From assembly GCA_013204185.1 (NCBI GenBank), contig JABMOI010000219.1:1-37678 (forward strand): DNA of 37,678 nt, given 5' to 3'. This DNA is from a bacterium (GTDB lineage Bacteria > Bacteroidota > Rhodothermia > Rhodothermales > UBA10348). Positions within the stretch are counted from its first letter, which is position 1. Each line of letters begins with the position of its first letter. The notes under the pieces are model-generated. The model ran no database searches, was not told where the DNA came from, and saw nothing but the letters and a program-made list of their open reading frames with translations. Shown here piece by piece: positions 3,792-33,169 of the stretch. The position numbers and the translations under genes were made by a program.

Positions 3792-3829
3792 GAAATGAAG
3801 GATGTACGTTTAACCAAGGACGGATACAA

Positions 3830-3865
3830 GCAAAAAGGCCGTTTCCATACTTGAAAACGCGCCTT
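3830..3865 (-). terminator. Rho-independent terminator after the M14 peptidase gene
   Basis: On the minus strand AAGGC pairs with GCCTT (3861-3865 with 3835-3839). An inner stem of about six pairs (3853-3859 with 3840-3845, one bulge) encloses a short loop, and TTTTT follows directly. It lies about 70 nt past the stop of the M14 gene and before alaS on the same strand. It therefore probably ends the asparaginase-peptidase transcript and separates it from alaS. Confidence 0.68.
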
Positions 3866-3935
3866 AGAGCTTTTAGAATCAAGGTGAATATACGGAATAC
3901 GTCGCAAATTGGACTGACTTCCGATTCAGATTCGG

Positions 3936-6548
3936 TTAATAACTAGAGCCGAAGAAGATGCCATTGAAGAACAACCGCTGGGTGCCCATCCAATAGGCGC
4001 GGTGGTTAATCTCGTTCATGAACACGATAACGTGACCGCGACCAGAACGAGTTGCTATCACACTAGCAGCTCCTCCCAATTGAGCAAGTCGCTCTTTGGA
4101 TAAATAACCACTCAGCAACGGCGTGGAACTGAAGGCGCCCAATAAGCCGCCCTGTGAACCCGTGTAGGCGTACAAGGACGAGTTGTCGTAGAAGACGGGA
4201 AGCTTCGGATTCAACCCATAGCCAACTGGATGCGTGGTGTCCAGATCTACTTCGAATATAGATCCGCCAATGGCTTGAGCTCCTCGGGCTTCGTCCAACA
4301 AGTGATACGGCAACCCGGCGGTAAGTGAATCCATATCTACCGAAATGGGCTCAACATCAATCAGGCCATTCTGGGAGGCCCAACTAGCGCCTCCTGTCAA
4401 CACAATAAGTGTTCCGCCACCCCGTGTCCAAGCTAGCAACGCATTTGTGCTACGCTCCGAATACCCACCACTAGGAAGAACAATGGTGTTGTAGCGGCTC
4501 AGGTCTGCGCTCCCAAAGTCGGATGCCTCTACCAATGAAACGGGCATATTAAATCGTTCGGAGATGGCGTGCCAGGCTTCTCCAGCTTGGCCCGAATTGG
4601 TGCCTGAACCCGCGGCAATGGCAATTCTCGGTTTTTGCAGTGTTGATGTGCTTTGTCCACCCAATTCAGGGCCGTCTGGCGTCATTGCGGTGTTCGCAGC
4701 CACAATATTGACGTAGTCTTGTCGAACAGCGTCCGCTACTAGGTCATGTACGAGTTGAGAATCGGATGTAGAATTTGGAGTATCCCGGCCATTGAGTGGA
4801 ATCACGACGGTCCCCCGGTCAAACCATACTTTCTTCCCATCCACCATTACGGAAAATGGCTCATTCGTTAGTCGAACATTGATTCCGGCTTCCATGAACC
4901 GATATAGCGCACGTGGAGCGAAAAACCGATCCCAGCGAAGTAAATAGGAATGCGTTGCTTTGCCGCCAACTAAGGATCCACCGTCTAATTCAAAAGAGGT
5001 AACCCGGTCACCTTGAATGGACGACAGCTTCCCTGAATACTCATACAAGTCGACGTCGAAGGCCAATGGCAACGTCCAGGTAGACACGTCATAAAACAAG
5101 GAATCCTGGTACTCGAGTGTTCGCTCTGTGAACGATTTGATTAGTCGATACTGGGGCTGGTCCGTAGGGATTACGTACGCGGAGCCAGATTTAATGGCCT
5201 TACCTTCAACCGTCACGTCCGAAGACAACTTGTAAAAGGCAACCCGGTGACGTTCAAACAACTGGGCGAAGAGCTGCGCCTTCGTTCGGTCCCTAGTTAG
5301 GTCCAAGACCCAAGCAGACTGGTTGGTCTTCTTTGCCATCTCACGGGATTCCTTGTAAAAATCCCTCTGGTAGGTTAGCAACCGAGTTCTTAGTCCAACA
5401 GCAGCCTGCAAGGTTGTGAGGGACGTTGCAAACTGATTTCGGACCGTGAATGCGTAGTGCAGTTCGCCATCTGGCATCTCGGACCGAAGCGCCCTGGAGG
5501 ATGCTTGTTCAAAAAGAATGCCCACCGAACCGTTGATATCAGGGTAGGCGGAGCCTTTTCCGTAGAAATAGTCGTCATATCCTTCCTCTGAAAAATAGGA
5601 CGAACCAATAGCATCAAGCCCCGCCGCGTGATATCCTGCGATGGCTTCGGTTAAACGGACATTTTCATCTGGAGTGTTTGGGTGTTTACGCGATGGGATG
5701 CCCGGCTGAAAGAAAAAAGTCGAGGCCCCTCCCATTTCGTGATGGTCCGTAAGAATTTGAGGGCGCCATGCTTGAAACACTTCCAATCTACCAACCGATT
5801 CAGGGTGCTGCCCTACCATCCAGTCCCGGTTCAGGTCAAACCAATAGTGATTTGTCCTACCTCCGGGCCATGGTTCGCTATGCTCCATGTCTTGGCTATC
5901 CGCCGTTCCTGATCGACCACGCATTCGATTAACCCAGTCCGCAAAACGATCTCGCCCGTCGGGGTTCAGCATGGGGTCAACAATTAAAACCGACTGCGAA
6001 AGCGCGTTTTCAATCATGTCACCCTCAGCGGCCGCAAGGTAGTACAGATACAGCAGCGCTGCTTCCGTTCCAGAAGCTTCGTTGCCATGCACGCTATACC
6101 CTTGGTACACAACGACTGGCATGGATTTAATATCCGAATCAGATACGCGCTCTGGCGCCTCGGATAACATGTCCTGTTGCGCTTGAATTGAAGCCAGACG
6201 ATCATGATTTGCCTCAGAGGTCACAATGGCATGGATCAGAGGGCGGCCTTCGTACGAACGTGCGTGCTCGGTAACCACCACTCGGTCGCTCACCGCCGCA
6301 ACGGCTCTGTAGTACGCTTCAACTTGGTGAGGCAATGTATGCTGCGTGCCAACCACATGTCCAATCACTTCTTCCGGAGTTGGAATAGCCGGATTAAACG
6401 AATCGACGCCTTCCAGAGGCATTTCCATAGCGAACGGCAGTCGCTGAGCATACACACTCGTTGACAAGGCGCTCAGAAACAAAAGACCAAGGACAAAGAG
6501 CACGCCCCGCTTCGATGGGGCGTGCATTCCACTTCCAAATGAAAACAT
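3936..6548 (-). CDS. Exported M14-family zinc carboxypeptidase with C-terminal amidotransferase-like region
   Basis: Secreted or periplasmic metallopeptidase of 870 residues. A basic N terminus and hydrophobic stretch (about 14-32), followed by a VYAQ-type cleavage region, give a signal peptide. The M14 domain runs from about 55 to 400. Zinc ligands are H154 and E157 in the SVHGNEASG motif and H269 or H270 in TDHHEMG; a likely catalytic Glu is E347 in ILFEQAS. The C-terminal half, with IAIAAGSG, IVLPSGGY and a final GRGHVIVFMNEINHRAYW, resembles class I glutamine-amidotransferase-like regions seen attached to bacterial M14 peptidases, but I see no clear catalytic triad there. It follows the glycosylasparaginase gene by 1 nt and is probably cotranscribed with it. 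An ATG at residue 8 is an alternative start. Exact substrate is unknown. Confidence 0.9.
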   Translation of the reverse strand: MFSFGSGMHAPSKRGVLFVLGLLFLSALSTSVYAQRLPFAMEMPLEGVDSFNPAIPTPEEVIGHVVGTQHTLPHQVEAYYRAVAAVSDRVVVTEHARSYEGRPLIHAIVTSEANHDRLASIQAQQDMLSEAPERVSDSDIKSMPVVVYQGYSVHGNEASGTEAALLYLYYLAAAEGDMIENALSQSVLIVDPMLNPDGRDRFADWVNRMRGRSGTADSQDMEHSEPWPGGRTNHYWFDLNRDWMVGQHPESVGRLEVFQAWRPQILTDHHEMGGASTFFFQPGIPSRKHPNTPDENVRLTEAIAGYHAAGLDAIGSSYFSEEGYDDYFYGKGSAYPDINGSVGILFEQASSRALRSEMPDGELHYAFTVRNQFATSLTTLQAAVGLRTRLLTYQRDFYKESREMAKKTNQSAWVLDLTRDRTKAQLFAQLFERHRVAFYKLSSDVTVEGKAIKSGSAYVIPTDQPQYRLIKSFTERTLEYQDSLFYDVSTWTLPLAFDVDLYEYSGKLSSIQGDRVTSFELDGGSLVGGKATHSYLLRWDRFFAPRALYRFMEAGINVRLTNEPFSVMVDGKKVWFDRGTVVIPLNGRDTPNSTSDSQLVHDLVADAVRQDYVNIVAANTAMTPDGPELGGQSTSTLQKPRIAIAAGSGTNSGQAGEAWHAISERFNMPVSLVEASDFGSADLSRYNTIVLPSGGYSERSTNALLAWTRGGGTLIVLTGGASWASQNGLIDVEPISVDMDSLTAGLPYHLLDEARGAQAIGGSIFEVDLDTTHPVGYGLNPKLPVFYDNSSLYAYTGSQGGLLGAFSSTPLLSGYLSKERLAQLGGAASVIATRSGRGHVIVFMNEINHRAYWMGTQRLFFNGIFFGSSY

Positions 6549-6549
6549 A

Positions 6550-7680
6550 TTAACCGTTGTTTTTGTAGAGATAAGCCAGTTTAACTAAGCGGCCGCCTTC
6601 AGGCGTGGCTACCGCGAACGTTCCGTTTCCGCCTCTGATTTCAGCTCCACCAACTTCCCCTTTCATGTTTAGGGCGTAGAACTGGACGTTAAAATCGGGA
6701 CGCCCCATGCTGTCTTGGAGCCGTGCGAGTTTTGTGTGATCGGCAATGCGCTGGCAAGCGACTAAACAAGCCTGCTCGGGCGAATCTCCTGCTCGCATAC
6801 GCTCAACAATGAGGAAGCTCGCTAGATTTTCGAGGTTTGCTTCGCCGCGGCCGGTTGATCCTGCTGCGCCCACTTCATTGTCACAATAGAGACCCGCACC
6901 GATAATTGGCGAATCGCCAACGCGGCCCGGAATTTTAAACGCCAGACCAGAAGTCGTTGTGACGCATGAAATATTTCCAGCCAAGTCGATTGCGGAACAG
7001 TGAATGGTACCCCAGTGGCGATGGATTGGCTCAGAAAGCGCTCCTATTCCTTTATCGCCGGGCTTGTGAGGTGGCAGATATTCGTCCATCGTGGACATGT
7101 TTTCCTTCCATCTCACCCATTCTTTGCGGGCTTTTTCTGTCAGCAGGTTTTCAATTGGGAACCCATGCATGGCCGCAAACTCTTGAGCGCCTTTGCCCAT
7201 TAAATTGACGTGGTCTGTGCGTTCCAACACTAATTTGGCCACTTTTGAGGGATATTTTATTCCTTCAATACAAGCAACCGAGCCAGCGCGACACGTGGGT
7301 CCGTGCATTACGGCTGAATCCAACTGGACCACGCCGTTGGCATTCGGAAGGCCGCCATAGCCAACACTCGTGTCTTCAGGATCTTCTTCAACCAAATTCA
7401 CTCCTGCAACCACAGCATCAAGGGCGTCGGCCCCGGACTGGATCATTTCAATGGCTTTCAACACCGTACCCTGCCCGTTCCGACTTGATATGGCAATGGG
7501 GCCAGCCTTCTTGTAAAGCGCTGTAGGCGCTGATACCGCACCGACTACGCGCGGCGCCGCTCCGAAGGTTGCGGCAGCGATGCCCGCCATGGTGCTCGTT
7601 TTCAAAAAGTCTCGCCGAGACGAGGGCTGGATTTTCGATTCTGGAGCCAAAGGTTTCACTTCTTCCGTTTGCTTATTCAT
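6550..7680 (-). CDS. N4-(beta-N-acetylglucosaminyl)-L-asparaginase (glycosylasparaginase)
   Basis: N-terminal nucleophile hydrolase that splits the bond between N-acetylglucosamine and asparagine in degraded N-glycoproteins. The 376 residues start with a Tat-type signal, SRRDFLK at 21-27 followed by an alanine-rich hydrophobic segment, so export of a folded enzyme is expected. The likely autocatalytic nucleophile is T225 in HWGTIHCSA. Downstream are the family motifs TTTSGLAFKIPGRVGDSPI (241-259) and GAAGSTGRGE. It is the first gene of a two-gene unit with the M14 peptidase, 1 nt apart. Both products are exported hydrolases of amide bonds, which suggests scavenging of glycopeptides; that link is inference. 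The upstream region to 7750 is shared with divergent thiE and holds a 12-bp palindrome. Specificity could extend to plain asparagine amides. Confidence 0.94.
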   Translation of the reverse strand: MNKQTEEVKPLAPESKIQPSSRRDFLKTSTMAGIAAATFGAAPRVVGAVSAPTALYKKAGPIAISSRNGQGTVLKAIEMIQSGADALDAVVAGVNLVEEDPEDTSVGYGGLPNANGVVQLDSAVMHGPTCRAGSVACIEGIKYPSKVAKLVLERTDHVNLMGKGAQEFAAMHGFPIENLLTEKARKEWVRWKENMSTMDEYLPPHKPGDKGIGALSEPIHRHWGTIHCSAIDLAGNISCVTTTSGLAFKIPGRVGDSPIIGAGLYCDNEVGAAGSTGRGEANLENLASFLIVERMRAGDSPEQACLVACQRIADHTKLARLQDSMGRPDFNVQFYALNMKGEVGGAEIRGGNGTFAVATPEGGRLVKLAYLYKNNG

Positions 7681-7718
7681 CTGGAACTATCTTAGGTGGA
7701 CGAGACATTTTCGATAAC

Positions 7719-7730
7719 CTACAATTGTAG
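7719..7730. promoter_or_regulatory. 12-bp palindrome between divergent genes, operator-like
   Basis: CTACAATTGTAG is a perfect palindrome in the 70-bp space between the divergent asparaginase and thiE genes. Its core fits TACAnnTGTA, the half-site pattern known for BlaI/CopY-type repressors. No such regulator is encoded in the window, and a chance palindrome cannot be excluded. Confidence 0.3.
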
Positions 7731-7750
7731 CTCCATCAACACAACTGCAA

Positions 7751-8383
7751 ATGCATCGAATTGGAAGACTTCACGTCCTAACAGATTTCACGTTTCAACA
7801 GCGCTATTCACATGCAGAACAAGCACTTATGGCCATTCAGGGCGGTGCTGAGGTCATTCAGTTCCGTCAAAAACATGGAAGCGTTCGTGACATGTTTGCT
7901 GAAGCCATGGCTGTAAAAAAGGTTTGCGAACACCAAGAAGTAACATTTTTGATAAATGACCGCGTAGATATTGCCTTGGCAGTCGGTGCGGATGGGGTCC
8001 ATTTGGGACAAACCGATTTGCCGGTTTCCGCTGCTAGAAGCATCCTCGGGCCAAACGCAATTATTGGAGTTACCGCGCCAGATGTAGAACTGGCCAAATT
8101 GGCAGAGAAGCAAGGCGCCGATTATGTAGGCTTTGGCCCCGTGTTTCTGACTCGTTCAAAGGCTAATCCTACAAGCGTCAAAGGGGTCCCTGGTCTTCAA
8201 AAGTTTTGCAGTTCTGTTTCCCTTCCTGTCATTGCAATTGCTGGTATTACGGTCGATCGTACGCGGGAAGTCCTTGAAGCTGGTGCGCATGGAATTGCCG
8301 TTATGACGGCTATATCTTTGGCTCAGTATCCGGAAATAGAAACCCAAAAATTCAGCCTTGCTTTGCTGGGGCAAAACGGCTAA
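7751..8383 (+). CDS. thiE: Thiamine phosphate synthase (ThiE family)
   Basis: Couples the pyrimidine diphosphate and thiazole phosphate moieties to make thiamine monophosphate; a cytoplasmic TIM barrel. The 210 residues are typical. Motifs are IQFRQK (near 35-40, the QLREK position), INDRVDIALAVGADGVHLGQTD (Asp/Asn and HLGQ-D residues that bind Mg2+ and pyrophosphate), and DYVGFGPVF. The loop that usually reads GVSxH in the family is GVTAPD here, so the His is replaced by Pro. This could mean relaxed function or a TenI-like role, although the remaining sites favour a real synthase. No other thiamine genes are nearby. It is divergent from the asparaginase gene and stands alone before the peptidase-kinase operon. 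Confidence 0.9.
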   Translation: MHRIGRLHVLTDFTFQQRYSHAEQALMAIQGGAEVIQFRQKHGSVRDMFAEAMAVKKVCEHQEVTFLINDRVDIALAVGADGVHLGQTDLPVSAARSILGPNAIIGVTAPDVELAKLAEKQGADYVGFGPVFLTRSKANPTSVKGVPGLQKFCSSVSLPVIAIAGITVDRTREVLEAGAHGIAVMTAISLAQYPEIETQKFSLALLGQNG

Positions 8384-8391
8384 CTGGTGAA

Positions 8392-8409
8392 ATTGCCTAT
8401 TTTTGGCAA
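8392..8409 (+). terminator. Weak hairpin just after thiE
   Basis: ATTGCC and GGCAAT form a perfect 6-bp stem with a 6-nt loop, starting 8 nt after the thiE stop codon. The loop is T-rich but no T-tract follows the stem, so it is at best a weak terminator or an RNA-stabilising hairpin. Confidence 0.3.
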
Positions 8410-8430
8410 TAATGCCTACAAACTATGTTC

Positions 8431-8458
8431 TTGTAATTTGCGACCTTAAGACTATACT
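8431..8458 (+). promoter_or_regulatory. Candidate promoter for the M24 peptidase operon
   Basis: TTGTAA, a 16-bp spacer, and TATACT lie 24 bp before the ATG at 8482. Match to the sigma70 consensus is fair. The Bacteroidetes TAnnTTTG element is not evident here. The position, between the thiE hairpin and the next start codon, supports it. Confidence 0.45.
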
Positions 8459-8481
8459 CGATTCAAAAATTCAAGTCCAAC

Positions 8482-9603
8482 ATGTCAGACGCTATTTCAA
8501 CCCGCCTAAACGCACTCGTTGCATCCATGGAGTCCCACAATCTGGATGCCATTCTGTTAAACCCTGGGTCCTCTCTTCCCTACTTGAGCGGATTGCATTT
8601 CCACATTAGTGAACGCCCCGTTGTATTTGCGCTATCGAAGGCTGGCAAGGTTTCAATTGTGCTTCCAGAACTGGAGAAGCAGAAAGTAACGCACTGTCCT
8701 TACCCCATCTCATCGTTTACTTATTCGGAAGACGTAGCTTCATGGCAGAAGGCGTTTTCAGCTGGGTTGTCTTTTTTGGCCAGCAGCGGGGCCAAAAACG
8801 TTGGAATTGAGCCAAGAAGCTTGCGGGTACTCGAGTTGCGCCTTATCGAAGATGCTCTGCCCGGCGTGAAGCTTGCCTCGTGCGAAGCATTGGTGGCTTC
8901 CCTTAGAATGCGTAAGGATTCTGACGAAATTGCTCAGATGAAAGTGGCCGTCGATATCGCTCAAAAAGCCCTCTTGGAAACACTCCCCCATGTAAAAGTG
9001 GGAGTCAGTGAGAGAGAAATGGCAGGACTGCTTATTCAAAATATGTTGAAGTTTGGATCCGGCGGTGAACTGCCATTTCAACCCATCGTCGCTTTTGGAG
9101 CCAATTCCGCCAATCCGCACGCCGTGCCTACGGACTACAAGGCCAAGCAAGGCGATATGATTTTGTTTGACTGGGGCGCAAATACCAACGGATACTTTTC
9201 CGATTTGACTCGGACATTTGCGTTGGGTGACCCTGGGGAAACGCTCAAAAATGCATATGCGGCTGTTCAAGCGGCGAATGCAGCGGGGCGAAACGCTTCA
9301 AAACCTGGCGTCACAGCGGGAAAAGTGGACGACGCGACGCGCAATGAAATTGTAAAAGCTGGTTTTGGACCTAAATTTACCCACCGGACAGGACACGGCC
9401 TTGGGCTTGAGGTCCACGAAGAACCGTACATTCGCGCTGGTAATGACGCGGTTCTAGACGTCGGAATGACGTTTACAGTGGAGCCAGGCGTCTATTTAGA
9501 TGGGCTGGGAGGCATTCGAATCGAAGACGATATGCTCATCACAGCTAATGGAAGTGAAAGCCTAAGTACATTGGATAGGGACCTGCAGATTCTGCCTCTA
9601 TGA
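8482..9603 (+). CDS. M24-family Xaa-Pro dipeptidase/aminopeptidase
   Basis: Cytoplasmic metallopeptidase that removes residues from peptides containing proline. The 373 residues have an N-terminal creatinase-like domain (about 5-140) and a C-terminal pita-bread domain. All five metal ligands are present: D230 in DWGAN, D241 in SDLTRT, H305 in HRTGHGLG, E334 in VEPGVY and E348 in RIEDD. Its final codons overlap the next gene's start by ATGA (9600-9603), so translation is coupled to the histidine kinase gene. A candidate promoter lies at 8431-8458. PepQ-like or aminopeptidase-P-like specificity cannot be separated from sequence alone. The arrangement with a kinase and a DUF819 membrane protein suggests peptide use under sensory control. 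Confidence 0.93.
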   Translation: MSDAISTRLNALVASMESHNLDAILLNPGSSLPYLSGLHFHISERPVVFALSKAGKVSIVLPELEKQKVTHCPYPISSFTYSEDVASWQKAFSAGLSFLASSGAKNVGIEPRSLRVLELRLIEDALPGVKLASCEALVASLRMRKDSDEIAQMKVAVDIAQKALLETLPHVKVGVSEREMAGLLIQNMLKFGSGGELPFQPIVAFGANSANPHAVPTDYKAKQGDMILFDWGANTNGYFSDLTRTFALGDPGETLKNAYAAVQAANAAGRNASKPGVTAGKVDDATRNEIVKAGFGPKFTHRTGHGLGLEVHEEPYIRAGNDAVLDVGMTFTVEPGVYLDGLGGIRIEDDMLITANGSESLSTLDRDLQILPL

Positions 9604-11030
9604 TGCATGAAATCCAAGTTCTGGTTGTTTCAGATTCGGCGGACCAAGTTCAATGGCTCCGGCGTCATGAGTCAGCGCTTGAAAGTTTGAACATCTCGTT
9701 TCGGTTCACGACAGAGTTTAACGTAAATGCGTTAGACGATATTCAGGCCTTGGAAGATATTCAGGCCATCATCGTAGATGAGTCGATCGGAGCAGACCTT
9801 GTACACGCCCTTCTAGCAGAGGTCATGTTACTGAATCGCTCACTTCCCGTGGTCATGGCGGTTCATGAACACCAGTTGGCCGAAAACGAGTACATGATTC
9901 GCTATGGCGCGCAGGATTTTATCCTGAAGAACATTGACTCTCCAGCGACCATTCGCAGGAGTATGATCAATGCCTTAGACCGAAGCGCTGTGCTTAGGGC
10001 AACGGAAGAAGCTGAATCTCAAATTCGAGCCTTGATCGAATCGTTGGCAGACGGCATTCTCATCGTAGACTCAACGGGAGTGGTTTTGTATGCGAATCCC
10101 ATGACGGAAGAGCTGTTGGGGAAAGAGCTCGACGAATTATTCGGCTTGCAAACGCCTTTTGCGCTTGGAGGAAGCGAACACGAGTATTTGTTCTGGGAGC
10201 GCCCAAACCGCCCCCCTGTGACTCTCTCGATCCAGTTGAGCCCCATCAGATGGGATGGTAGAAACGCTAGCCTTTTTCTGATGCGCGACGTGACCTCAGA
10301 GCAAGCTTCGTTCGATTTGCTAAAAGCAGCTAGAAAATCGGCAGAAAAGGCCGCTGCCATGAAATCGACCTTTTTGGCTCATATGAGCCATGAACTTCGG
10401 CTTCCTCTTGCTAGCATCATTGGTTTTGCGGAGCTCATCGAGGAAGGTGAAACGAATCCTGATTTCAAAGAATTTGCTTCTCTCATTCATGAAAGCGGAC
10501 AGCGTTTACTCGAGACAATTAATGCCGTTTTAGAAGCGACTCGGCTTGATCAACATACCTTGCTACCATCGTTCACGACTGTGAACTTGGCACCCGTCAT
10601 TCAATCGGTCGTAAAACGCATGCAACCCTTGGTTAAAGGACCGGATGTTGTGCTATCTGCGACCACCGGACCTCAGTTAAAAGTGAAGGCCGACGCCGCT
10701 TTTTTGGAGCGCATCCTGAACAACCTCATTGGAAACGCCACCAAATTTACCCCGAAAGGAACGATTACCGTATCCTGGGAAGAAGAGGAAGAAAACGCGG
10801 TAGTTCACATCGTTGACACCGGAATTGGAATTGCTTCCTCCTTTTTGAGGACCGCTTTTGATGAGTTTACTCAAGAAAGTTCAGGCCCAAGTCGTTCCCA
10901 CGATGGATCTGGATTGGGGCTTTCCATTGTTAAGAAGCTTCTAGAAATGATGGACGGAAGCATATCTGTTTCAAGCATTAAAGACAAAGGCTCCACCTTT
11001 ACGTTTCGTCTGCCACTCGTATCCAACTAA
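9600..11030 (+). CDS. Receiver-PAS-histidine kinase
   Basis: Sensor kinase of 476 residues without transmembrane segments, so probably cytoplasmic. An N-terminal receiver-like domain (about 1-130) keeps a candidate phospho-acceptor D60 (IIVDESIG) and the conserved Lys K110 (FILKN). A PAS domain follows at about 140-235. The HisKA domain holds H264 in MSHELRLPL, and the ATPase domain has the N box near N375-N379, DTGIGI at 406-411 and DGSGLGLS at 435-442. An 18-bp partial duplication (9738-9767) repeats DIQA inside the receiver. Translation is coupled by ATGA to the M24 peptidase gene, and the DUF819 gene begins 8 nt later. No partner response regulator is adjacent, so the output is unknown. 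Confidence 0.93.
   Translation: MMHEIQVLVVSDSADQVQWLRRHESALESLNISFRFTTEFNVNALDDIQALEDIQAIIVDESIGADLVHALLAEVMLLNRSLPVVMAVHEHQLAENEYMIRYGAQDFILKNIDSPATIRRSMINALDRSAVLRATEEAESQIRALIESLADGILIVDSTGVVLYANPMTEELLGKELDELFGLQTPFALGGSEHEYLFWERPNRPPVTLSIQLSPIRWDGRNASLFLMRDVTSEQASFDLLKAARKSAEKAAAMKSTFLAHMSHELRLPLASIIGFAELIEEGETNPDFKEFASLIHESGQRLLETINAVLEATRLDQHTLLPSFTTVNLAPVIQSVVKRMQPLVKGPDVVLSATTGPQLKVKADAAFLERILNNLIGNATKFTPKGTITVSWEEEEENAVVHIVDTGIGIASSFLRTAFDEFTQESSGPSRSHDGSGLGLSIVKKLLEMMDGSISVSSIKDKGSTFTFRLPLVSN
9738..9767 (+). repeat. 18-bp-period tandem duplication inside the kinase receiver domain
   Basis: GATATTCAGGCC occurs at 9738-9749 and again at 9756-9767, separated by TTGGAA, giving an 18-bp period and the in-frame peptide DIQALEDIQA. 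It looks like a small slippage insertion of six codons just before the phospho-acceptor strand. Confidence 0.85.
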
Positions 11031-11038
11031 GAGAATCA

Positions 11039-12211
11039 GTGATAACCGAACCCAACCAACTGTTTGCCCTGCTTGCTTCCGTACTCGCTTTACTGTTTTA
11101 CTTAAGTACTCTCGATTACCTAAAAGGCTTTTTCAAGTTTTTGCCTCCCGTTATTTGGGCCTATTTCCTACCCATGTTTCTAACAGCGGGCGGCATTACG
11201 CCTCTGCAGTCCACCGTTTATGACTGGATGGGCGACTATCTCCTGCCCTTCTCACTCTTCTTGTTGATGCTCACTGTCGATCTGCCAGCGATCATGAAAC
11301 TGGGCAGAAAGGCCATCACCATGATGCTGGCAGGAACGTTGGGAATTGTTATTGGAGGCCCCATTGCGTTCTTGATATTCAAATCGTTTTTGCCACCCGA
11401 TGCGTGGAAAGGGTTCGCTACACTTTCTGGGAGCTGGATTGGCGGAACGGCGAATATGCTAGCGATTCAGGCAAGCGTGGGGGCTCCCGACTCTATTGTG
11501 GGCCCCATTATCGTTGTAGATACCGTAGTTGGATACGGCTGGATGGGCGTCCTCATATTCTTAAGCGCTTTCCAAGTACGGTTTGACAAGTGGGTTGGGG
11601 CGGATAATTCGGCCATCGAGCAAGCCAATGCGCGTCTTCAGGAAATGGATACAACGCGTAGACCAACCCAACTGAACGATCTGGTTTACATGTTGGGCTT
11701 GGGCCTCGGCGGTACCGTGATTGCAAAAGTACTTGGAAACCTGCTTCCGGTGCTCGGCAATCCGACCATTATCAGCCATACTACATGGTCCATATTGATT
11801 GTGGTTACCATTGGACTGAGCCTTTCTTTTACACCGTTGCGCAAGTTAGAACGAGCAGGAGCCTCAAAAATGGGCTTTCTCGCTCTGTTCTTGTTGCTGA
11901 CTTCCATCGGAGCCAAAGCGGACCTTAGAGCCCTGTGGGAAGTCCCTATTTATATGGCTGCTGGCGCTGTTTGGATCACCATTCATATTGGCATCCTGAT
12001 CATTGTAGCCAAACTGATGAAAGCACCCCTGTTTTTTGTAGCTACGGGGAGCATGGCCAATATTGGTGGGGCGGCAAGCGCCCCAATCGTGGCCAGCGTG
12101 TACCATCCCGCCATGGCACCCGTAGGGCTCCTCATGGGTGTTTCTGGTTACTTCCTAGGAATTTACGCTGCGATTGGATGCGCCTGGATACTTGGGCAAT
12201 TGGCCATGTAG
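11039..12211 (+). CDS. DUF819 family integral membrane protein
   Basis: Polytopic inner-membrane protein of 390 residues with about ten hydrophobic helices, resembling the DUF819 (YjcL-like) family. Conserved-looking stretches include SGSWIGGTANMLAIQ with a Gly/Asn-rich loop, IIVVDTVVGYGWMG, and ATGSMANIGGAASAPIVAS near the C terminus. The paired Gly/Asn/Ala-rich half-helical loops recall transporters with inverted repeats, but no substrate is established for the family. The start codon is GTG at 11039, 8 nt after the kinase stop; the next residues lead straight into the first helix. It is the last gene of the peptidase-kinase-membrane protein unit. A role in moving short peptides or amino acids is inference from context. 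Confidence 0.88.
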   Translation: MITEPNQLFALLASVLALLFYLSTLDYLKGFFKFLPPVIWAYFLPMFLTAGGITPLQSTVYDWMGDYLLPFSLFLLMLTVDLPAIMKLGRKAITMMLAGTLGIVIGGPIAFLIFKSFLPPDAWKGFATLSGSWIGGTANMLAIQASVGAPDSIVGPIIVVDTVVGYGWMGVLIFLSAFQVRFDKWVGADNSAIEQANARLQEMDTTRRPTQLNDLVYMLGLGLGGTVIAKVLGNLLPVLGNPTIISHTTWSILIVVTIGLSLSFTPLRKLERAGASKMGFLALFLLLTSIGAKADLRALWEVPIYMAAGAVWITIHIGILIIVAKLMKAPLFFVATGSMANIGGAASAPIVASVYHPAMAPVGLLMGVSGYFLGIYAAIGCAWILGQLAM

Positions 12212-12217
12212 TTGAGC

Positions 12218-12254
12218 GCGGCCTAACTCTGTGGCCACCATGGTTTTAGGCCGC
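12218..12254. terminator. Hairpin between convergent genes
   Basis: GCGGCCTAA (12218-12226) pairs perfectly with TTAGGCCGC (12246-12254), a 9-bp GC-rich stem with a 19-nt loop. It fills the 48-bp space between the DUF819 gene and the convergent oligoendopeptidase gene. No T-tract follows on either strand, so a bidirectional terminator is plausible but not classical. Confidence 0.5.
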
Positions 12255-12259
12255 CAAGC

Positions 12260-14107
12260 CTAAGCCTTAGTTTTTAGCATCAACGCCTCAGCCTGATCAA
12301 CCAATGCACCAATAGCAGCGACTCCTTGAGCCCAGAATTCTGGGTCGCGCAGGTCCACTCCTAGCTTTCCGACCAAAACGTGAGGCCAGTCAGAGCCGCC
12401 GGAGGACAGTAATTCTAAGTAGTCGCTTGCAAAGGCGTCGCCTTCTACTTGGTATTTTGCATGCAGCGCCAACACTAAGAGCTCTCCAAACGCATACGCA
12501 TACACATAGCCTGGCGTATGCAAAAAGTGAGGGATGTAGCTCCACCACCATTGGTAATTCTGAGAAAGCTGGACGCTACCGTCAAACATTGGCTTCTGGG
12601 TTTCCATCCAGGCTGCGCTTAAATCCTCGGAAGATAATTCACCTCGCTCGCGTCTCAGCGTGTGAATGCGATCCTCGAAACGGTTCATTGAGACCTGACG
12701 AAAAACCGTGGCGATCGTGTCGTCAATTTTCCCCATGAGCATGGCTAACCGGTTAGCGTCCTCTTTTTCCTCTGACATCAAACGCTGAAATACCAACATC
12801 TCGCCGAACACAGAAGCCGTTTCCGCTGTGGTTAAGGGCGTATCCGCGTGAAAGATTCCCTGCTTTCTGGATAGATACTGATGAATACCGTGGCCCAGTT
12901 CATGTGCTAGCGTCTGAACGTCCCGGATTTTGCCAGTGTAGTTAACCAAGATATACGGATGGGTGCTTGGAACGGCCCCGTGACTGAATGCGCCACCGCG
13001 TTTTGCTGGGGCAAGCGCGGCGTCAATCCAATTGCGCTCAAAAAACATGGAAGCAATCTCCCCCATCTGGGGATGAAACGCCGTATACGAATCCAGCACC
13101 ATTTTTTTTGCTGTTTCCCAGGGGATAAATCGATCTGCCTCTCCAATGGGAGCGTACCGATCGTATTCCGTCATCTCGTCGATTCCCAGAAGCTGACGCT
13201 TAATCTCGTAAAAGCGTCCAACGTGCGCATACCCAGCTTGGACAGCGGCAATAAGCGCTTCCACATCTTGGTCAGCCACTTCGTTGGATTGATTCCGGGA
13301 CGATATCCAATTGGGGTACCCTCGCAAGCGATCGTCCAGCGCTTTATCGGCGAGGATGGTATTAAAAACGAAGGTAAGAGGGCGAATGGAACTCTTAAGG
13401 CCGGATGTAAATGCCTCTGCGGCTTCCTGGCGCACACTCCGATCACTATCGTGCAGCTTTGCAAGTATTTGCTGCTGAGTTAGCTTTTCTCCGTCAAAAT
13501 CGAAGGTTAAGTCTCCTAGCGTTTCATCAAAAAACCGATTCCAGGCAGATCGACCCGTGTTGTGCTTCTCCACCATAATGCGCTCTTCGGGCTCGGACAG
13601 CAGATGCTTCTTATTGAGCGACAACACTTCCAAATAATGGCCAAAAGCCGACATGTCAGGTCTCGACAAAATGTCGCGCATTCTGCTTTCTTCCAGCTCC
13701 GTCCACTCTAGGTCGAAAAACAGGAGATTTGTCGATATTTCGGTGTAGGCTTCTTTCACTTTTTGAAGAAGTGCACCTCGATGCGCCGCCGCCGTGTCTG
13801 TTGACCAATTTAAATAGGCATACGTGTAGGCTTTGCCTACGCTATCCTGAATGGATCCAAGTTCATGCATGGCAACCGCATACCCCTTGTCCTCCAACAC
13901 ATTAAGCCGCCCCTTGTACTCTTTTGAAAAAGCCTTTGCTTGTTCCAATGAGTCCGATAAAGCCTTCAAAAGCGCTTCTTCTGTGGCAAACATGTCCGTC
14001 AAATCCCAACGAACGTTTTCCGCGCCTGTAGGCTTTTCTTTAGATTTCTGTGTCGGCGAGGCGTTCGAGTAGTTCGGTGAAAGCATGTTGGGAAAGAAAG
14101 ATTTCAT
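12260..14107 (-). CDS. pepF: Oligoendopeptidase F (M3 family)
   Basis: Cytoplasmic zinc endopeptidase that cuts short peptides. The 615-residue length is close to the roughly 600 of the family. The HExxH motif is at H402, E403 and H406 in AHELGHGIHQY, with the third ligand E429 in TTAETASVFGE. The N-terminal helical part (about 30-200) is the oligoendopeptidase N-terminal region, and the C terminus has the helical substrate-channel sequence around WSYIPHFLHTPGYVYAYAFGE. A second Met at residue 8 is an alternative start. It is transcribed alone, convergent with the DUF819 gene and divergent from the TlpA-like gene. With the nearby M24, M14 and M16 peptidases it adds to the peptide-degradation character of the region. 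Confidence 0.96.
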   Translation of the reverse strand: MKSFFPNMLSPNYSNASPTQKSKEKPTGAENVRWDLTDMFATEEALLKALSDSLEQAKAFSKEYKGRLNVLEDKGYAVAMHELGSIQDSVGKAYTYAYLNWSTDTAAAHRGALLQKVKEAYTEISTNLLFFDLEWTELEESRMRDILSRPDMSAFGHYLEVLSLNKKHLLSEPEERIMVEKHNTGRSAWNRFFDETLGDLTFDFDGEKLTQQQILAKLHDSDRSVRQEAAEAFTSGLKSSIRPLTFVFNTILADKALDDRLRGYPNWISSRNQSNEVADQDVEALIAAVQAGYAHVGRFYEIKRQLLGIDEMTEYDRYAPIGEADRFIPWETAKKMVLDSYTAFHPQMGEIASMFFERNWIDAALAPAKRGGAFSHGAVPSTHPYILVNYTGKIRDVQTLAHELGHGIHQYLSRKQGIFHADTPLTTAETASVFGEMLVFQRLMSEEKEDANRLAMLMGKIDDTIATVFRQVSMNRFEDRIHTLRRERGELSSEDLSAAWMETQKPMFDGSVQLSQNYQWWWSYIPHFLHTPGYVYAYAFGELLVLALHAKYQVEGDAFASDYLELLSSGGSDWPHVLVGKLGVDLRDPEFWAQGVAAIGALVDQAEALMLKTKA

Positions 14108-14266
14108 TGCAAAAACGAGGTACCATATTGGGAATCAGAGAACCCATTACCCGATCAAAGGGTTCAAGGTGAAACGAGCAAATTTTGCAGCGAAGTGCAG
14201 CGTGTCAAAAGACAGTTAGCTCACGGATTGCCAAACCGCATTTTAAACGATTGCCCCCCTCCTTTT

Positions 14267-14818
14267 ATGACAAGAGTTATCGCTGGACTTCTATTTATGT
14301 CTTTGCTGATTGCAGGATGCTCCGAGGATTCCACACGAACTGAAAGAACTGAACTGTTGCCAGGAGAGGTTCGCCTGGACAATACCGTCCCTGATTTCGT
14401 AAGACCACTACTAGCAGGCGATTCGCTCAGAACAGCTGACCTCATGGGTCAGGTTACACTAGTCAATTTCTGGGCCACCTGGTGTGGTCCGTGCATCATT
14501 GAAATACCGGAATTCGTTGTCCTGCAAGAAGAATGGGCCGACAGGCCGTTCCAATTTATCGGGGTATCTATGGACGACATGGGGTTTGAAGCCATCGAAA
14601 CCTTCGTCTCGGATTTCCACATGAACTATCCCCAAATTGCCGACATAGGAGAATTGGCTGACCAGTTTGGCGGTGTTTGGGCCCTCCCGACGACTTTCGT
14701 TGTAAACCACGAAGGCAAGGTTCTAGCTAGCTATACCGGCCCTCTTCCGCTGGATAAGATTCAGTCTGAAATCGAAGCCTTAGTTGTACTCGCTGAACAA
14801 AGTCAGGACGGGAAATAA
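14267..14818 (+). CDS. TlpA/ResA-like thioredoxin-fold lipoprotein
   Basis: Membrane-anchored periplasmic thiol-disulfide protein. I choose the ATG at 14267 rather than the in-frame start at 14195, because it puts MTRVIAGLLFMSLLIAGC at the N terminus, a lipoprotein signal with lipobox LIAGC. The mature protein then carries a TlpA-like fold with FWATWCGPC (the CxxC active site), IGVSMDD, and the cis-proline region ALPTTFVVN. The product is 183 residues. Such proteins reduce cytochrome c or other exported thiol proteins; the partner here is unknown. The last 16 bp overlap the convergent M16 gene. The start choice is well supported; the redox role comes from the family. Confidence 0.92.
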   Translation: MTRVIAGLLFMSLLIAGCSEDSTRTERTELLPGEVRLDNTVPDFVRPLLAGDSLRTADLMGQVTLVNFWATWCGPCIIEIPEFVVLQEEWADRPFQFIGVSMDDMGFEAIETFVSDFHMNYPQIADIGELADQFGGVWALPTTFVVNHEGKVLASYTGPLPLDKIQSEIEALVVLAEQSQDGK

Positions 14819-16089
14819 AATCCGACTGTTCGCTGGCGGTTGTTGAAATACCGCACCGCAACCTCCTGAATCTTTTCAGCAGTAACCTTCTCGGCTCGGT
14901 CTAGAAAACGCGTGTATAGTTTCCAGTCTCCACTCGCAATTGCTTCGTTGAGCTGAGAAGCAAGGGAAAATGAGCCATCACGCGCATACAAGGTGTGTGC
15001 TCTTAGTTTTTTCAGCGCTCTATTGATCTCGGTTACTGAAACCAATACCTGCTTTAAAACGTCGAGTTCGCCTTCAATTTCGCTTTGTACCAGCCTGAGC
15101 TTTTCAGCATCTGCTGACATGGCCATGAGCGTGAACAAACCGGGGTCCCGAAAAGCGGAAGCTCCAGCGGACTGCATCGTGGCAAGCCCCTTATCTACAA
15201 GAGACCTAGACATTCGGCTAGACTTGCCGTTGGAAAGAATCATTCCCAAGAGATGAAGCGCAGGCAAGTCCTCGTGGTGAGCATCCGGGATTTTGTACCC
15301 CATAATGAGCGTCGGCATACCGCCGGCCATTTCAACTGTGATCTGCCGTTCACCCAATTGCTTCGGTTCAAGGCCATCAAACCGCTTGGATGGAATGTCT
15401 CTGCTAGGAATTGAACCAAACTTTTCGAGAATCAGCTCCATGGTATGAACAGAGTCAAACCCTCCAATAACTGATATTGTGGCATTATTTGGCCAATAGT
15501 ATCGGTCGTAAAACGAGCGCAGCGATTCTGGAGTCACGGTTTCAATGTCCTTGCGCCATCCAATGGTTGGATGATGATAGGGATGGGCAACGTAAGCGGC
15601 AGTCCACACAGCGTGATACAATTTCCTGACGGGCTCGTTTTCGCCACGGTCAAACTCATTGAGAATGACCGTCTTTTCGCTCGATACCTCAGTAGGATCT
15701 AACGCCAAGTTGCGCATACGATCTGCTTCAATATCAATCGCCAAGCTCAAATGCTCGGACGGAAGCATCTCGTAGTAGTTCGTCCGATCATTCCAAGTCG
15801 TTGCATTAACCCGAGCTCCCTTGGACTGCAACGCGTTAAAAATGGTCGTGCCCGATTTTTTGGAATAGCGATCCGTGCCTTTGAACATCATGTGTTCCAA
15901 GAAATGCGTTGCGCCCGTTTCGCCCAGCAATTCGTCTTTGCTGCCCACCTTGTAGGTAATCATAAACGTGGCGACCGGCGTTTCGCCGCCTGGGGCCAGC
16001 AATACTTCAAGTCCGTTGGCATCTAGCCTGTACGAAGAGATGCCCCCTTCTTCCTCGAGCTTGGTAAATCCTGAAAAAGTCCTTTCCAT
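14803..16089 (-). CDS. M16-family zinc peptidase
   Basis: Insulinase/processing-peptidase-like metallopeptidase with 428 residues, the size of a single catalytic subunit. The inverted zinc motif HxxEH is at H62, E65 and H66 (THFLEHMMFKGT), with the distal ligand probably E145 in ILNEFDRGE. The second M16 repeat (about 170-400) includes WPNNATISVIGGFD. I see no signal peptide, so a cytoplasmic location is likely. It begins 4 nt after the polA stop and should be cotranscribed with polA. Its 3' end overlaps the convergent TlpA-like gene by 16 bp. No second, inactive M16 partner gene adjoins it, so it may act as a homodimer. Confidence 0.94.
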   Translation of the reverse strand: MERTFSGFTKLEEEGGISSYRLDANGLEVLLAPGGETPVATFMITYKVGSKDELLGETGATHFLEHMMFKGTDRYSKKSGTTIFNALQSKGARVNATTWNDRTNYYEMLPSEHLSLAIDIEADRMRNLALDPTEVSSEKTVILNEFDRGENEPVRKLYHAVWTAAYVAHPYHHPTIGWRKDIETVTPESLRSFYDRYYWPNNATISVIGGFDSVHTMELILEKFGSIPSRDIPSKRFDGLEPKQLGERQITVEMAGGMPTLIMGYKIPDAHHEDLPALHLLGMILSNGKSSRMSRSLVDKGLATMQSAGASAFRDPGLFTLMAMSADAEKLRLVQSEIEGELDVLKQVLVSVTEINRALKKLRAHTLYARDGSFSLASQLNEAIASGDWKLYTRFLDRAEKVTAEKIQEVAVRYFNNRQRTVGFYFPS

Positions 16090-16093
16090 TTGC

Positions 16094-18895
16094 CTAATGA
16101 GCCTCTAGCCAATTATTTCCGATGTCCATGGATACCTCAACAGGTATGTTGAGCGGAAGAGCGCCGACCATTTCTTCCCGTACCAACGTCTCTATTTTAT
16201 CAATCTCAGAGGGCAGCACTTCAAACACCAGCTCATCGTGGACCTGTAAGAGCATTTTACTATGTAAACCCTCAGACTTGATGCGCTTTTGAATCGCAAT
16301 CATGGCAAGCTTGATCATATCCGCCTGTGTGCCTTGAATGGGCATGTTCACTGCGACTCGCTCTGCAAATGCACGCACATTCCGGTTTTTAGCATGGATA
16401 TCTGGGATATACCGTTTCCTGCCTAACATGGTCTCAGCATATCCAGTTTCTGAAGCCTTTTCAATTTGATGTACAATGAACGAGGCGACCGACGGAAAAT
16501 TACGATTGTACCCATCAATCAGTTCTTGGGCCTCAGTGCGAGAGCATCTTAACCTTGTGGCGAGGCCAAAGGCTGAAATACCGTATGGAATCCCATAATT
16601 GACCTCTTTGGCCTTATTACGTTGTTCTCTGGTGACCTCTTCAATTGAAACGCCGAAAACCTTTGCCGCCGTTGCTGTATGGATATCCACGCCATCAAGA
16701 TACGCCTGTTTCAACGCCTCATCTCCAGAAAGCGATGCAAGAATGCGTAACTCAATTTGGGCGTAGTCGGCCGACAGGAGCTGGTATCCAGGCTTAGGAA
16801 TGAACGCTTTTCTGACTTCCCGACCACGTTCCGTTCGAATCGGAATGTTTTGCAAGTTGGGGTTTGTACTGGACAAGCGGCCCGTAGCAGCCGTTGTTTG
16901 GCTATAAGAAGTATGAATACGGTGCGTTTCTGGGTGTATTAAATTTCCTAACGCATCGATATAGGTAGACTTCAGCTTAGCTAGCTCGCGCCAATCCAGA
17001 ATCATGCCCGGTAGTTCATGCTCGGTCGCTAACTCCTGCAAGACGGTTTCCTTAGTCGATGCTTTTCCGGTTGAGGTTTTCGAAATAACGGGCAGCCCTA
17101 GTTTTTCGAACAAAATCACACCAATCTGGGCCGGAGATCCAATATTGAACTCCTCTCCTGCTGCTCCAAATATTTGCCGTTCTAAGAGTTCTAGGTCTTC
17201 AGCCGTTTTGACCGACAGTTCAGACAAAACAGATGCATCCAAGCCAATTCCCGCCAATTCCATCTCAGAAAGGACCTCAACCAGTGGGAATTCGATATCG
17301 TACGCAATGTTCGACACGTCCTTTTCAGCTAGCATCGGCTCAAACAGTGCGGCCAGCTGCAATGTGACATCGGCATCTTCACATGCATAGGGCGAAACGT
17401 CCGATGGGGCCACATCTCGCATGGTCAACTGATTCTTACCCGTTCCGATCAACGAAGAAATTGGAATAGGCGAATACTTTAAGTAGCGCTTTGCTAGCGC
17501 GTCCATGTTGTGCGCCTCTTCCGGAGCAATTAAATAGTGCGCCACCATTGTGTCAAAGACGGGGCCAGACACCTGAAGTCCGTGATGCGCCAGCACAATC
17601 CAATCGTATTTGACATTTTGACCGATTTTCAGGGCGGGTCCCTCAAGAATAGGACGAACCGCATCAATTACGTCATTTGTCGAGGAGCCATCGGGCAAAG
17701 GCGTCGGAATGTAGAACGCTTCGTTCGGCTTCACGCTGAACGAAATCCCAACCAATGAAGCCAAATGTGAATCAACAGATGTCGTTTCGGTGTCAAAACT
17801 GACCCGATCAAAGCCTTTCAAGTACAAACAGAGTTCGCCTAGGCGCTCAATGGTCGTCACCATTTCATACGAGACTGCTTCCGCGTCGTGATGCTTGAGG
17901 TCGGAAGTTCCAAAAAGATCTACTTGCTCTTCTGAATCTGGTTTTTCTTTTGAAGGAGCATGCGTTGTTTTCAACGGTGCAAAAAGCCCTGTTGCCACCT
18001 TGGGAGATAACACTCGTTCAACTCGATCGAAGAGACGGTTGAACTCCAACTCCTCAAACAACTGCTTCAGTAGCTGCAGGTCCGGAGCTTGACAGGTGAA
18101 ATCGTGCCAACCAACATCGAGCTCCACATCCGTCTTGATGGTTACCAATCGTTTGGAAAGCCTAGCCATGTCCGCCTCTGCCGCAAGCCCCTCTTGTGCC
18201 CGCTTGCCTTTCACTTCATGGGCGTGATCTAATAAATTCTCGAGCGTCCCGTATTCTTCAATCAGCTTGACGGCGGTCTTTTCGCCAATCCCTTTAACAC
18301 CGGGAACGTTGTCCGCCGCATCACCCATCAAGGCCAAGACATCAATAAACTGAATAGGATTTAAGCCAAACTTTTCCTTGAAGGAAGCTTCCGTAATGGG
18401 ATCAAACTCTTCGCCCCGATACGCAGGCCTGAACATTTCGACCTTACTACTCAACAGCTGCTGAAAGTCCTTGTCGGGCGAAACAATAACGGTATGCGCC
18501 CCATCTCGCTCAGCCTGTTTTGCCAGCGTCCCAATCACGTCGTCGGCCTCTACACCCTCTACCTCAACCACCGGAATATCCATGGCCCGCACCACATTCT
18601 TCATGTGAGGCAGATTTGCAATTAAATCCTCTGGAGGTGGGTCCCGATGCGCTTTATAGTCTTCAAACATTTCATCGCGAAATGTCCCGCCCTCTCCCAT
18701 CACGTCAAACACGACGGCCAAATGGTCAATCCCATGGTCCTCAATGAGCTTTATCAGGGCAGAGGTAAATCCATACGTTGCGCTGGTGTTAAAGCCTTTG
18801 GAATTAACCAACGGTCTGTTAATGAAAATGAAGTGGGCGCGATAGGCCAGTGCCATGGCGTCCAGCAGGTACAGCGTTTTTTTCGACTCGCTCAT
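16094..18895 (-). CDS. polA: DNA polymerase I
   Basis: Repair and Okazaki-fragment polymerase, 933 residues, all three domains present. The 5' nuclease (about 1-290) has EADDVIGTLA and the helix-hairpin-helix VPGVKGIGEKTA. The 3'-5' exonuclease (about 345-520) keeps the DEDDy residues D368, E370, D431, Y503 and D507, so proofreading should be active. The polymerase domain has D710 in LLSADYAQIELRILA and the O helix around 759-778 with R759, K763 and VNYGIPYG. The residue aligned with E. coli Phe762 is Tyr767 here. VHDELVFEV is the catalytic motif C. The gene is followed after 4 nt by the M16 peptidase and is divergent from rfbB. Confidence 0.98.
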   Translation of the reverse strand: MSESKKTLYLLDAMALAYRAHFIFINRPLVNSKGFNTSATYGFTSALIKLIEDHGIDHLAVVFDVMGEGGTFRDEMFEDYKAHRDPPPEDLIANLPHMKNVVRAMDIPVVEVEGVEADDVIGTLAKQAERDGAHTVIVSPDKDFQQLLSSKVEMFRPAYRGEEFDPITEASFKEKFGLNPIQFIDVLALMGDAADNVPGVKGIGEKTAVKLIEEYGTLENLLDHAHEVKGKRAQEGLAAEADMARLSKRLVTIKTDVELDVGWHDFTCQAPDLQLLKQLFEELEFNRLFDRVERVLSPKVATGLFAPLKTTHAPSKEKPDSEEQVDLFGTSDLKHHDAEAVSYEMVTTIERLGELCLYLKGFDRVSFDTETTSVDSHLASLVGISFSVKPNEAFYIPTPLPDGSSTNDVIDAVRPILEGPALKIGQNVKYDWIVLAHHGLQVSGPVFDTMVAHYLIAPEEAHNMDALAKRYLKYSPIPISSLIGTGKNQLTMRDVAPSDVSPYACEDADVTLQLAALFEPMLAEKDVSNIAYDIEFPLVEVLSEMELAGIGLDASVLSELSVKTAEDLELLERQIFGAAGEEFNIGSPAQIGVILFEKLGLPVISKTSTGKASTKETVLQELATEHELPGMILDWRELAKLKSTYIDALGNLIHPETHRIHTSYSQTTAATGRLSSTNPNLQNIPIRTERGREVRKAFIPKPGYQLLSADYAQIELRILASLSGDEALKQAYLDGVDIHTATAAKVFGVSIEEVTREQRNKAKEVNYGIPYGISAFGLATRLRCSRTEAQELIDGYNRNFPSVASFIVHQIEKASETGYAETMLGRKRYIPDIHAKNRNVRAFAERVAVNMPIQGTQADMIKLAMIAIQKRIKSEGLHSKMLLQVHDELVFEVLPSEIDKIETLVREEMVGALPLNIPVEVSMDIGNNWLEAH

Positions 18896-22056: not shown

Positions 22057-22548
22057 CTGGTGCTCCTCGGCGATTCGATGGAATAGCATGCGGGCCGTCC
22101 GTTCCACCATCTGAAACACTTCTTCAAACCCCTCAGGGCCTCCGTAGTACGGATCTGGTACCTGGTAATCTCCGGGTTCGGGATCGAACTCTCTAAAAAG
22201 CCTAACCTTGTGGCCCAAAGTGCCCGTCGCGTCTAACGCAAGAATGTCGTCCAAATTAGACTTATCCATGGCAAAGATATAGTCAAAGGTCTCCAGGTCA
22301 GCCTTCACGAATTGCCGACCCTCAAGGTGCCCGATACTAACTCCGTGTTGCGCTGCCGCCTGGCGCATACGCTTATCTGGAGGATCTCCCACATGCCAAC
22401 CGCTCGTTCCGGCAGAGTCCACAAAAATCTTCTCGGATTGCCCGTGTTCATGCACGATTGAATCGAAGACACCATCTGCAAGTGGGCTTCGACATATGTT
22501 ACCTAAGCACACAAAAAGCACTCGAATGCTACTCGATTCCTTACTCAT
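22039..22548 (-). CDS. Low-molecular-weight protein-tyrosine phosphatase
   Basis: Cytoplasmic phosphatase of 169 residues with the P-loop CLGNICRS at 14-21 (nucleophile C14, R20) and the general acid Asp in VPDPYYGG. Substrates may be tyrosine-phosphorylated proteins such as BY-kinases, or phosphoarginine proteins; neither kinase is in the window. The start codon overlaps the stop of the upstream transporter gene by ATGA, so it belongs to the ParA-acylase-transporter unit. The 3' end overlaps the convergent HAD gene by 18 bp, leaving no room for an intergenic terminator. Confidence 0.95.
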   Translation of the reverse strand: MSKESSSIRVLFVCLGNICRSPLADGVFDSIVHEHGQSEKIFVDSAGTSGWHVGDPPDKRMRQAAAQHGVSIGHLEGRQFVKADLETFDYIFAMDKSNLDDILALDATGTLGHKVRLFREFDPEPGDYQVPDPYYGGPEGFEEVFQMVERTARMLFHRIAEEHQLSVKY

Positions 22549-24032: not shown

Positions 24033-24074
24033 GATTCTGGGTTTTTAACAGGCAAATCTAGAGTGCAGGACCGG

Positions 24075-33159: not shown

Positions 33160-33169
33160 TTGGACAAAT

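Follow-up and report, generated by a model that had tools for sequence, protein, structure and literature searches.

What does a soluble histidine kinase do between the genes of a cytosolic peptidase and a transporter-like membrane protein? The question is raised by positions 8482 to 12211 of the 37,678-nucleotide stretch analyzed here (the window), which is one contig (JABMOI010000219.1) of a 271-contig, 3.44 Mb assembly of a Rhodothermales bacterium. The three genes, encoding an M24 peptidase, the kinase, and a DUF819 protein, follow each other on the forward strand (Table 1). A preliminary description took them for a cotranscribed module of peptide use, in which DUF819 moves a peptide and the kinase senses it or a product. 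Its coordinates and strands are correct, as are the ATGA shared by the peptidase and kinase genes and the gap of 8 nt between the kinase stop codon and the GTG start of the DUF819 gene. We find that the trio is a real conserved operon, whose parts are known and whose arrangement is new.

Relatives were searched for in 60 genomes (G000-G059), comprising 27 genomes of the family of the window (G000-G026; family f1, Rhodothermales) and 33 genomes of the order outside it. Gene calls made by simple rules in GC-rich genomes may err locally, and the conclusions about the trio rest on tblastn matches. An orthologue of the kinase is present in 21 of the 27 family genomes; 20 of these matches are full or long, and the 21st, in G004, is a 55-aa kinase tail beside a contig edge. 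In all 21 it lies directly upstream of DUF819. None of the 33 genomes outside the family has a kinase orthologue with the N-terminal domain, and the best match there (209 bits) covers residues 134-474 only. The M24 and kinase frames overlap at 16 of the 19 loci, 13 times by 4 nt and three times by 1 nt, the other three junctions being abutting or ambiguous, and 21 loci give a kinase-to-DUF819 spacing of -4 to 67 nt. The order M24-kinase-DUF819 thus recurs across the family more than expected by chance. These overlaps and short spacings make cotranscription very likely and speak strongly against a trio confined to one strain, which is the outcome that the preliminary description had named as one that would count against it. 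The six family genomes with no kinase seen are G020, which keeps the other two genes, G023, which has contig breaks, and G005, G008, G024, and G026, which are 62-85% complete and also lack this DUF819.

The pair of M24 and DUF819 is older than the kinase. In a survey of 244 genomes of the class (cut-offs of E 1e-60 for M24 and E 1e-70 for DUF819), M24 was found in 44 genomes, DUF819 in 141, and, counted by hand, both in 30. In 27 of these 30 the two genes are adjacent, on one strand and within 2 kb; the remaining three comprise two cases of contig ends (G004 and G023) and one genome with the genes far apart (G032). Five of the 27 adjacent pairs belong to family f2, where the genes are separated by 12-50 nt, and two belong to family f11, where a divergent gene stands between them; a relative of this gene in locus L099 gave no Pfam match. 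Neither f2 nor f11 has the kinase. In G020 the genes are ~100 nt apart. The M24 tree places this genome, at a node with starred support, among genomes that hold the kinase, and therefore we read its kinase as lost. Family f11 is placed inside f1 in the same tree, weakly.

The peptidase retains nine of nine metal-binding and pocket residues. The nearest solved sequence is the Pyrococcus dipeptidase 1wn1/2how (224 bits, full-length match). In an alignment of 30 rows, including families f1, f2, f3, f11, and f14, the metal ligands D230, D241, H305, E334, and E348 are kept in every row, and so are the Pro-pocket residues H213, H301, H312, and R346, picked by the numbering of aminopeptidase P (AMPP). 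The metal ligands and the equivalents of the Pro-pocket His and Arg are common to M24B Xaa-Pro peptidases (the Pyrococcus dipeptidase, PepQ, and YpdF); unlike these, the window enzyme is operonic with a transporter and a kinase. It is probably an Xaa-Pro dipeptidase or aminopeptidase, with the specificity assigned at the family level, because the score is below the curated cut-off of the PepQ equivalog NF040821 (187.7 vs 630).

The DUF819 protein matches PF05684 with 294.2 bits (cut-off 27) over residues 11-386. Its AlphaFold2 (AF2) model, built from a 43-row alignment, has a mean predicted local confidence (pLDDT) of 90.4. Searched with this model, Foldseek puts citrate symporters (CitS) first (E 8.6e-5), while a second structural aligner puts AspT first (Z 25.6, 355 residues, root-mean-square deviation 3.9 A) and scores CitS (Z 24) within ~1.5 Z of it. 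We therefore have a confident model of what is predicted to be an elevator transporter of the AspT/CitS type, sharing its predicted fold with AspT (the aspartate:alanine exchanger) and CitS (2HCT family) over 350-370 residues. Unlike in fold, in sequence the window protein is only ~15% identical to them and matches only its own family: Pfam at E 0.001 gives DUF819 and neither AspT nor 2HCT, and a profile search of PDB sequences yielded no match at E 1. The families resembling the model are built with inverted repeats. Their likeness to it in fold supports an inverted-repeat architecture, which the preliminary description had proposed to look for. The two conserved loops (Table 1) would be the re-entrant loops, going by the fold. 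The structural matches (Z 24-26) agree with the fold of the CPA/AT clan of re-entrant transporters, where the excerpted text of a published modelling study places DUF819 (PMC8396727).

A rival reading concerns the direction of transport. With AspT, an antiporter, as the top match (Z 25.6), DUF819 could be an AspT-like exporter or exchanger that clears amino acids freed by M24 and the nearby peptidases, the kinase sensing their overflow and not an incoming peptide. The peptidase acting in the cytosol and several more peptidases in the surrounding island fit this as well. However, the symporter CitS is ~1.5 Z away from AspT and comes first in Foldseek, and a fold gives neither direction nor cargo, so we consider export unlikely. 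Transport of peptides or amino acids by DUF819 is plausible; in the excerpts of the literature naming the family, we found no tested substrate.

In the kinase, Pfam detects a PAS domain together with HisKA (62.9 bits) and HATPase_c (91.1 bits), the last two over their cut-offs. The phospho-acceptor His264 is kept in 20 of 20 alignment rows, and the core looks active from its sequence. The fourth residue after the histidine is Met in 13 rows, Leu in six, including the window kinase, and Ile in one. An E/DxxT/N motif in this place marks bifunctional HisKA kinases/phosphatases, the Thr/Asn being tied to the phosphatase activity, according to excerpted texts (PMC10723718, PMC5706477); Thr or Asn was found here in 0 of 20 rows.

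The N-terminal domain is missed by Pfam at E 0.001, but structure prediction for residues 1-136 gives a model (mean pLDDT 91) that matches receiver domains. The preliminary description had given the kinase its own receiver with D60 and K110. Both residues are there, and the domain could be imagined to take the phosphate from His264 in a self-contained phosphorelay: among the 19 orthologue rows that hold the domain, Asp60 is kept in 18 and Lys110 in 10, with Arg in five more. The canonical set (acidic pair, Asp, Thr/Ser, Lys) is otherwise degenerate. An acidic pair at positions 11-13 is missing from every row, 13 of the 19 lack even a single acidic residue there, and Thr/Ser at position 87 (beta-4) is present in five; only one row (L087) combines Asp, Lys, and Thr/Ser with one or more acidic residues. 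Such a relay is thus highly improbable. With the acidic pair absent, Thr/Ser variable, and Lys present in 10 of 19 rows, the domain is probably a pseudo-receiver rather than a working phosphoacceptor, and a partner or ligand may still bind to it. As described in the excerpted text of PMC1974792, pseudo-receivers of the FrzS type likewise have the receiver fold minus the acidic-pair residues; unlike FrzS, the domain studied here keeps the beta-3 Asp and precedes a PAS-HisKA kinase. In a sample of 296 genomes of the phylum, a profile of the domain scored 62-163 bits in seven of seven family genomes, and the next matches (up to 44 bits) are read as ordinary receivers. The Pfam scan also agrees that no response regulator adjoins the kinase. 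The only one that it found among the scanned window genes, at 32503-33159, is paired with a HisKA_3-type kinase; this separate pair of a PAS-HisKA_3 kinase and a LuxR-type regulator spans 32503-34501.

Our best single explanation of these data, preferred tentatively, is a peptide-use operon. The three genes would form one translationally coupled unit inherited in one Rhodothermales family and built around an older pair: M24B, as an Xaa-Pro peptidase of the cytosol, and DUF819, as a secondary transporter of the elevator type. By alternating access, DUF819 would take its cargo, either a small peptide or one of the amino acids freed from it, over the inner membrane, and the peptidase would process this cargo. 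The soluble PAS-HisKA kinase, which this family gained between the pair, would read a cytosolic cue via PAS and the receiver-like domain, most of whose phosphorylation residues are gone, and would signal to an unlinked response regulator. Besides the conserved gene order and overlaps, the intact peptidase residues, and the AspT/CitS-like model, we count in favor of peptide use the peptidase-rich surroundings (M14, Asparaginase_2, M3, and M16) and the second DUF819 gene of the same genome, with an M19 dipeptidase gene ~50 nt away.

Several observations weigh against peptide use. Outside f1, 39 of the 47 order genomes that carry DUF819 are without this M24, and 14 of the 44 genomes with M24 are without this DUF819; the genes are widely separated in G032, and G020 does without the kinase. 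No match to the window M24 was found near the Gemmatimonadota DUF819 that is ~60% identical, and among 80 named DUF819 loci, many of them from Gemmatimonadota, this M24 was matched as a neighbor only in loci of the Rhodothermales type. AspT and CitS carry amino acids and carboxylates and are not known to carry peptides. Universal coupling of M24 and DUF819 was rejected, as the pairing was seen in the Rhodothermales families f1, f2, and f11, plus an independent case in family f27 (L140).

The same absences suit a different account, in which the neighborhood is conserved with no common function. Cotranscription would then be real and the substrate link not: the trio would sit in a slowly shuffled peptidase-rich island, DUF819 would carry something unrelated, such as a carboxylate, and the kinase would regulate other genes. 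Much of the order has one of M24 and DUF819 but not both, and the fold class takes in citrate carriers. Moreover, the family shares a syntenic block of ~10 genes, thiE, PepF, TlpA-like, and M16 genes among them, and therefore adjacency alone is weak evidence. Still, the pair persists at 12-50 nt in f2, and in f11 with a divergent gene between its members, the M24 and kinase frames overlap in most loci, and an unrelated M24 subfamily adjoins DUF819 in a distant Bacteroidota family (L140). We regard this account as possible, if somewhat doubtful, and retain the peptide-use operon as the preferred one.

Table 1. Positions of the genes and sequence features in and around the operon (window coordinates).
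Feature	Position	Strand	Details and basis
M24B metallopeptidase, cytosolic	8482..9603	+	373 aa; Pfam PF00557 217.5 bits plus PF01321 (Creatinase_N + Peptidase_M24)
ATGA overlap of M24 stop and kinase start	9600..9603	+	read from sequence; 4-nt overlap likewise in 13/19 loci
Soluble histidine kinase: degenerate receiver - PAS - HisKA - HATPase_c	9600..11030	+	476 aa; Pfam and orthologue alignment
Probable N-terminal pseudo-receiver of kinase	9600..10007	+	AF2 model pLDDT 91, receiver fold matches, residue counts
D60 codon of pseudo-receiver	9777-9779	+	residue counts
K110 codon of pseudo-receiver	9927-9929	+	residue counts
Phospho-acceptor His264 of kinase, within MSHELRLPLAS	10389..10391	+	H+4 is Leu, not Thr/Asn; alignment
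DUF819 (PF05684), predicted elevator-type membrane transporter	11039..12211	+	390 aa, GTG start; Pfam and AF2
DUF819 conserved loop 1, SGSWIGGTANM	11426..11458	+	residues 130-140; invariant or near-invariant in 43-row alignment
DUF819 conserved loop 2, GSMANIGGAASAPIV	12047..12091	+	residues 337-351; invariant or near-invariant in 43-row alignment
thiE-like gene	7751..8383	+	98 nt upstream of M24; synteny
Weak terminator-like hairpin 3' of DUF819	12245..12264	+	terminator scan
Asparaginase_2 / beta-aspartyl-peptidase-like gene, twin-arginine (TAT) signal	6550..7680	-	syntenic neighbor
M3 oligoendopeptidase (PepF-like)	12260..14107	-	syntenic neighbor

The thiE-like gene may or may not share a transcript with the trio. 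Terminator-like sites in the window are at the chance level (nine vs 8.2 expected), and a sigma-70 scan gave 11 promoter-like sites vs 5.7 expected; comparing five same-genus sequences by eye, we saw no convincing conserved promoter upstream of M24. The peptidase-rich island spans 3936-18895 and contains M14, Asparaginase_2 (with the TAT signal), M24, M3 (PepF-like), and M16 genes, the last adjoined by a large gene on the same strand; the island is syntenic across the family. At 22545-26492, a penicillin-amidase gene stands beside a gene of the sodium:neurotransmitter-symporter family, a second pair of an amide hydrolase and a transporter on the contig. In one family genome (G010:C82; L081, L292), an in-frame TAG interrupts DUF819, the rest of the locus being intact.

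Beyond the family, a phylum-wide sample of 395 genomes has DUF819 in 121, and it also occurs in records of Gemmatimonadota, Vibrio, Xanthomonas, and Fusobacterium. To characterize its neighbors, we surveyed 117 DUF819 loci outside f1, f2, and f11 for same-strand genes within 150 nt (n=103, of which ~38 were unscanned and the rest judged by cluster representative). Enzymes of peptide or amide bonds account for nine of the 103 tight neighbors, with ~38 unscanned and no background rate for comparison: M19 (L122), an amidohydrolase (L119), S9 (L185, L186), NlpC/P60 (L133, L141; seen in family f24), a distinct M24 subfamily (L140, f27), AstE/AspA (L209), and a penicillin amidase (L200). S9 also adjoins DUF819 in Xanthomonas sacchari. 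With nine such neighbors named, DUF819 is not demonstrated to stand beside peptidases in general. The amidohydrolase of L207/L208 was dropped as a partner, since it scores as a dihydroorotase, and a group of S33-type hydrolases (L169) was excluded from the count as ambiguous.

The second DUF819 of the window genome (L122, G000:C267:1-5943; 2251-4418) is 24-27% identical, with the M19 dipeptidase gene after it and an octopine-dehydrogenase-like gene before. On a Fusobacterium vincentii plasmid (L308:2688-5882), an epimerase-like gene, DUF819, and a class A beta-lactamase-like gene form a tight series; the top NCBIfam match of the first is L-Ala-D/L-Glu epimerase, under the cut-off. A beta-lactamase-like serine hydrolase gene also follows DUF819 on the same strand in eight of nine fetched loci of family f16 of the class (L165, L166, L168, L170, L172, L177, L178, L179). 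Families f4, f6, and f11 have a divergent gene of a predicted secreted protein or lipoprotein beside or near DUF819 (L099:9804-10592, with no Pfam match; also L104, L108, L110, L115, and L124). In Neisseria meningitidis, going by the excerpted text of PMC12671195, DUF819 directly follows a metallopeptidase gene, as here; that locus differs in the peptidase family (M15), the lack of a kinase, and its nature of a variable cassette in the methylcitrate locus.

As a lead, DUF819 as a whole may be tied to dipeptide enzymes (M24, M19, NlpC/P60, and the epimerase-like enzyme). It is rather unlikely, if conceivable, that DUF819 proteins are in general secondary transporters for dipeptides or their products, with each subfamily coupled to its own dipeptide enzyme (M24 here, M19 at the second DUF819 gene of the window genome, NlpC/P60 in f24, the epimerase-like enzyme in Fusobacterium, S9 in Xanthomonas, and M15 in Neisseria), and that this family added a kinase bearing a pseudo-receiver, tying peptide flux to gene control.

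For the family, the kinase cleanly exemplifies a regulator added to an enzyme-transporter pair that predates it, and a single loss is available for comparison. For DUF819, the predictable specificity of the peptidase suggests a few candidate substrates, namely Xaa-Pro dipeptides and proline.

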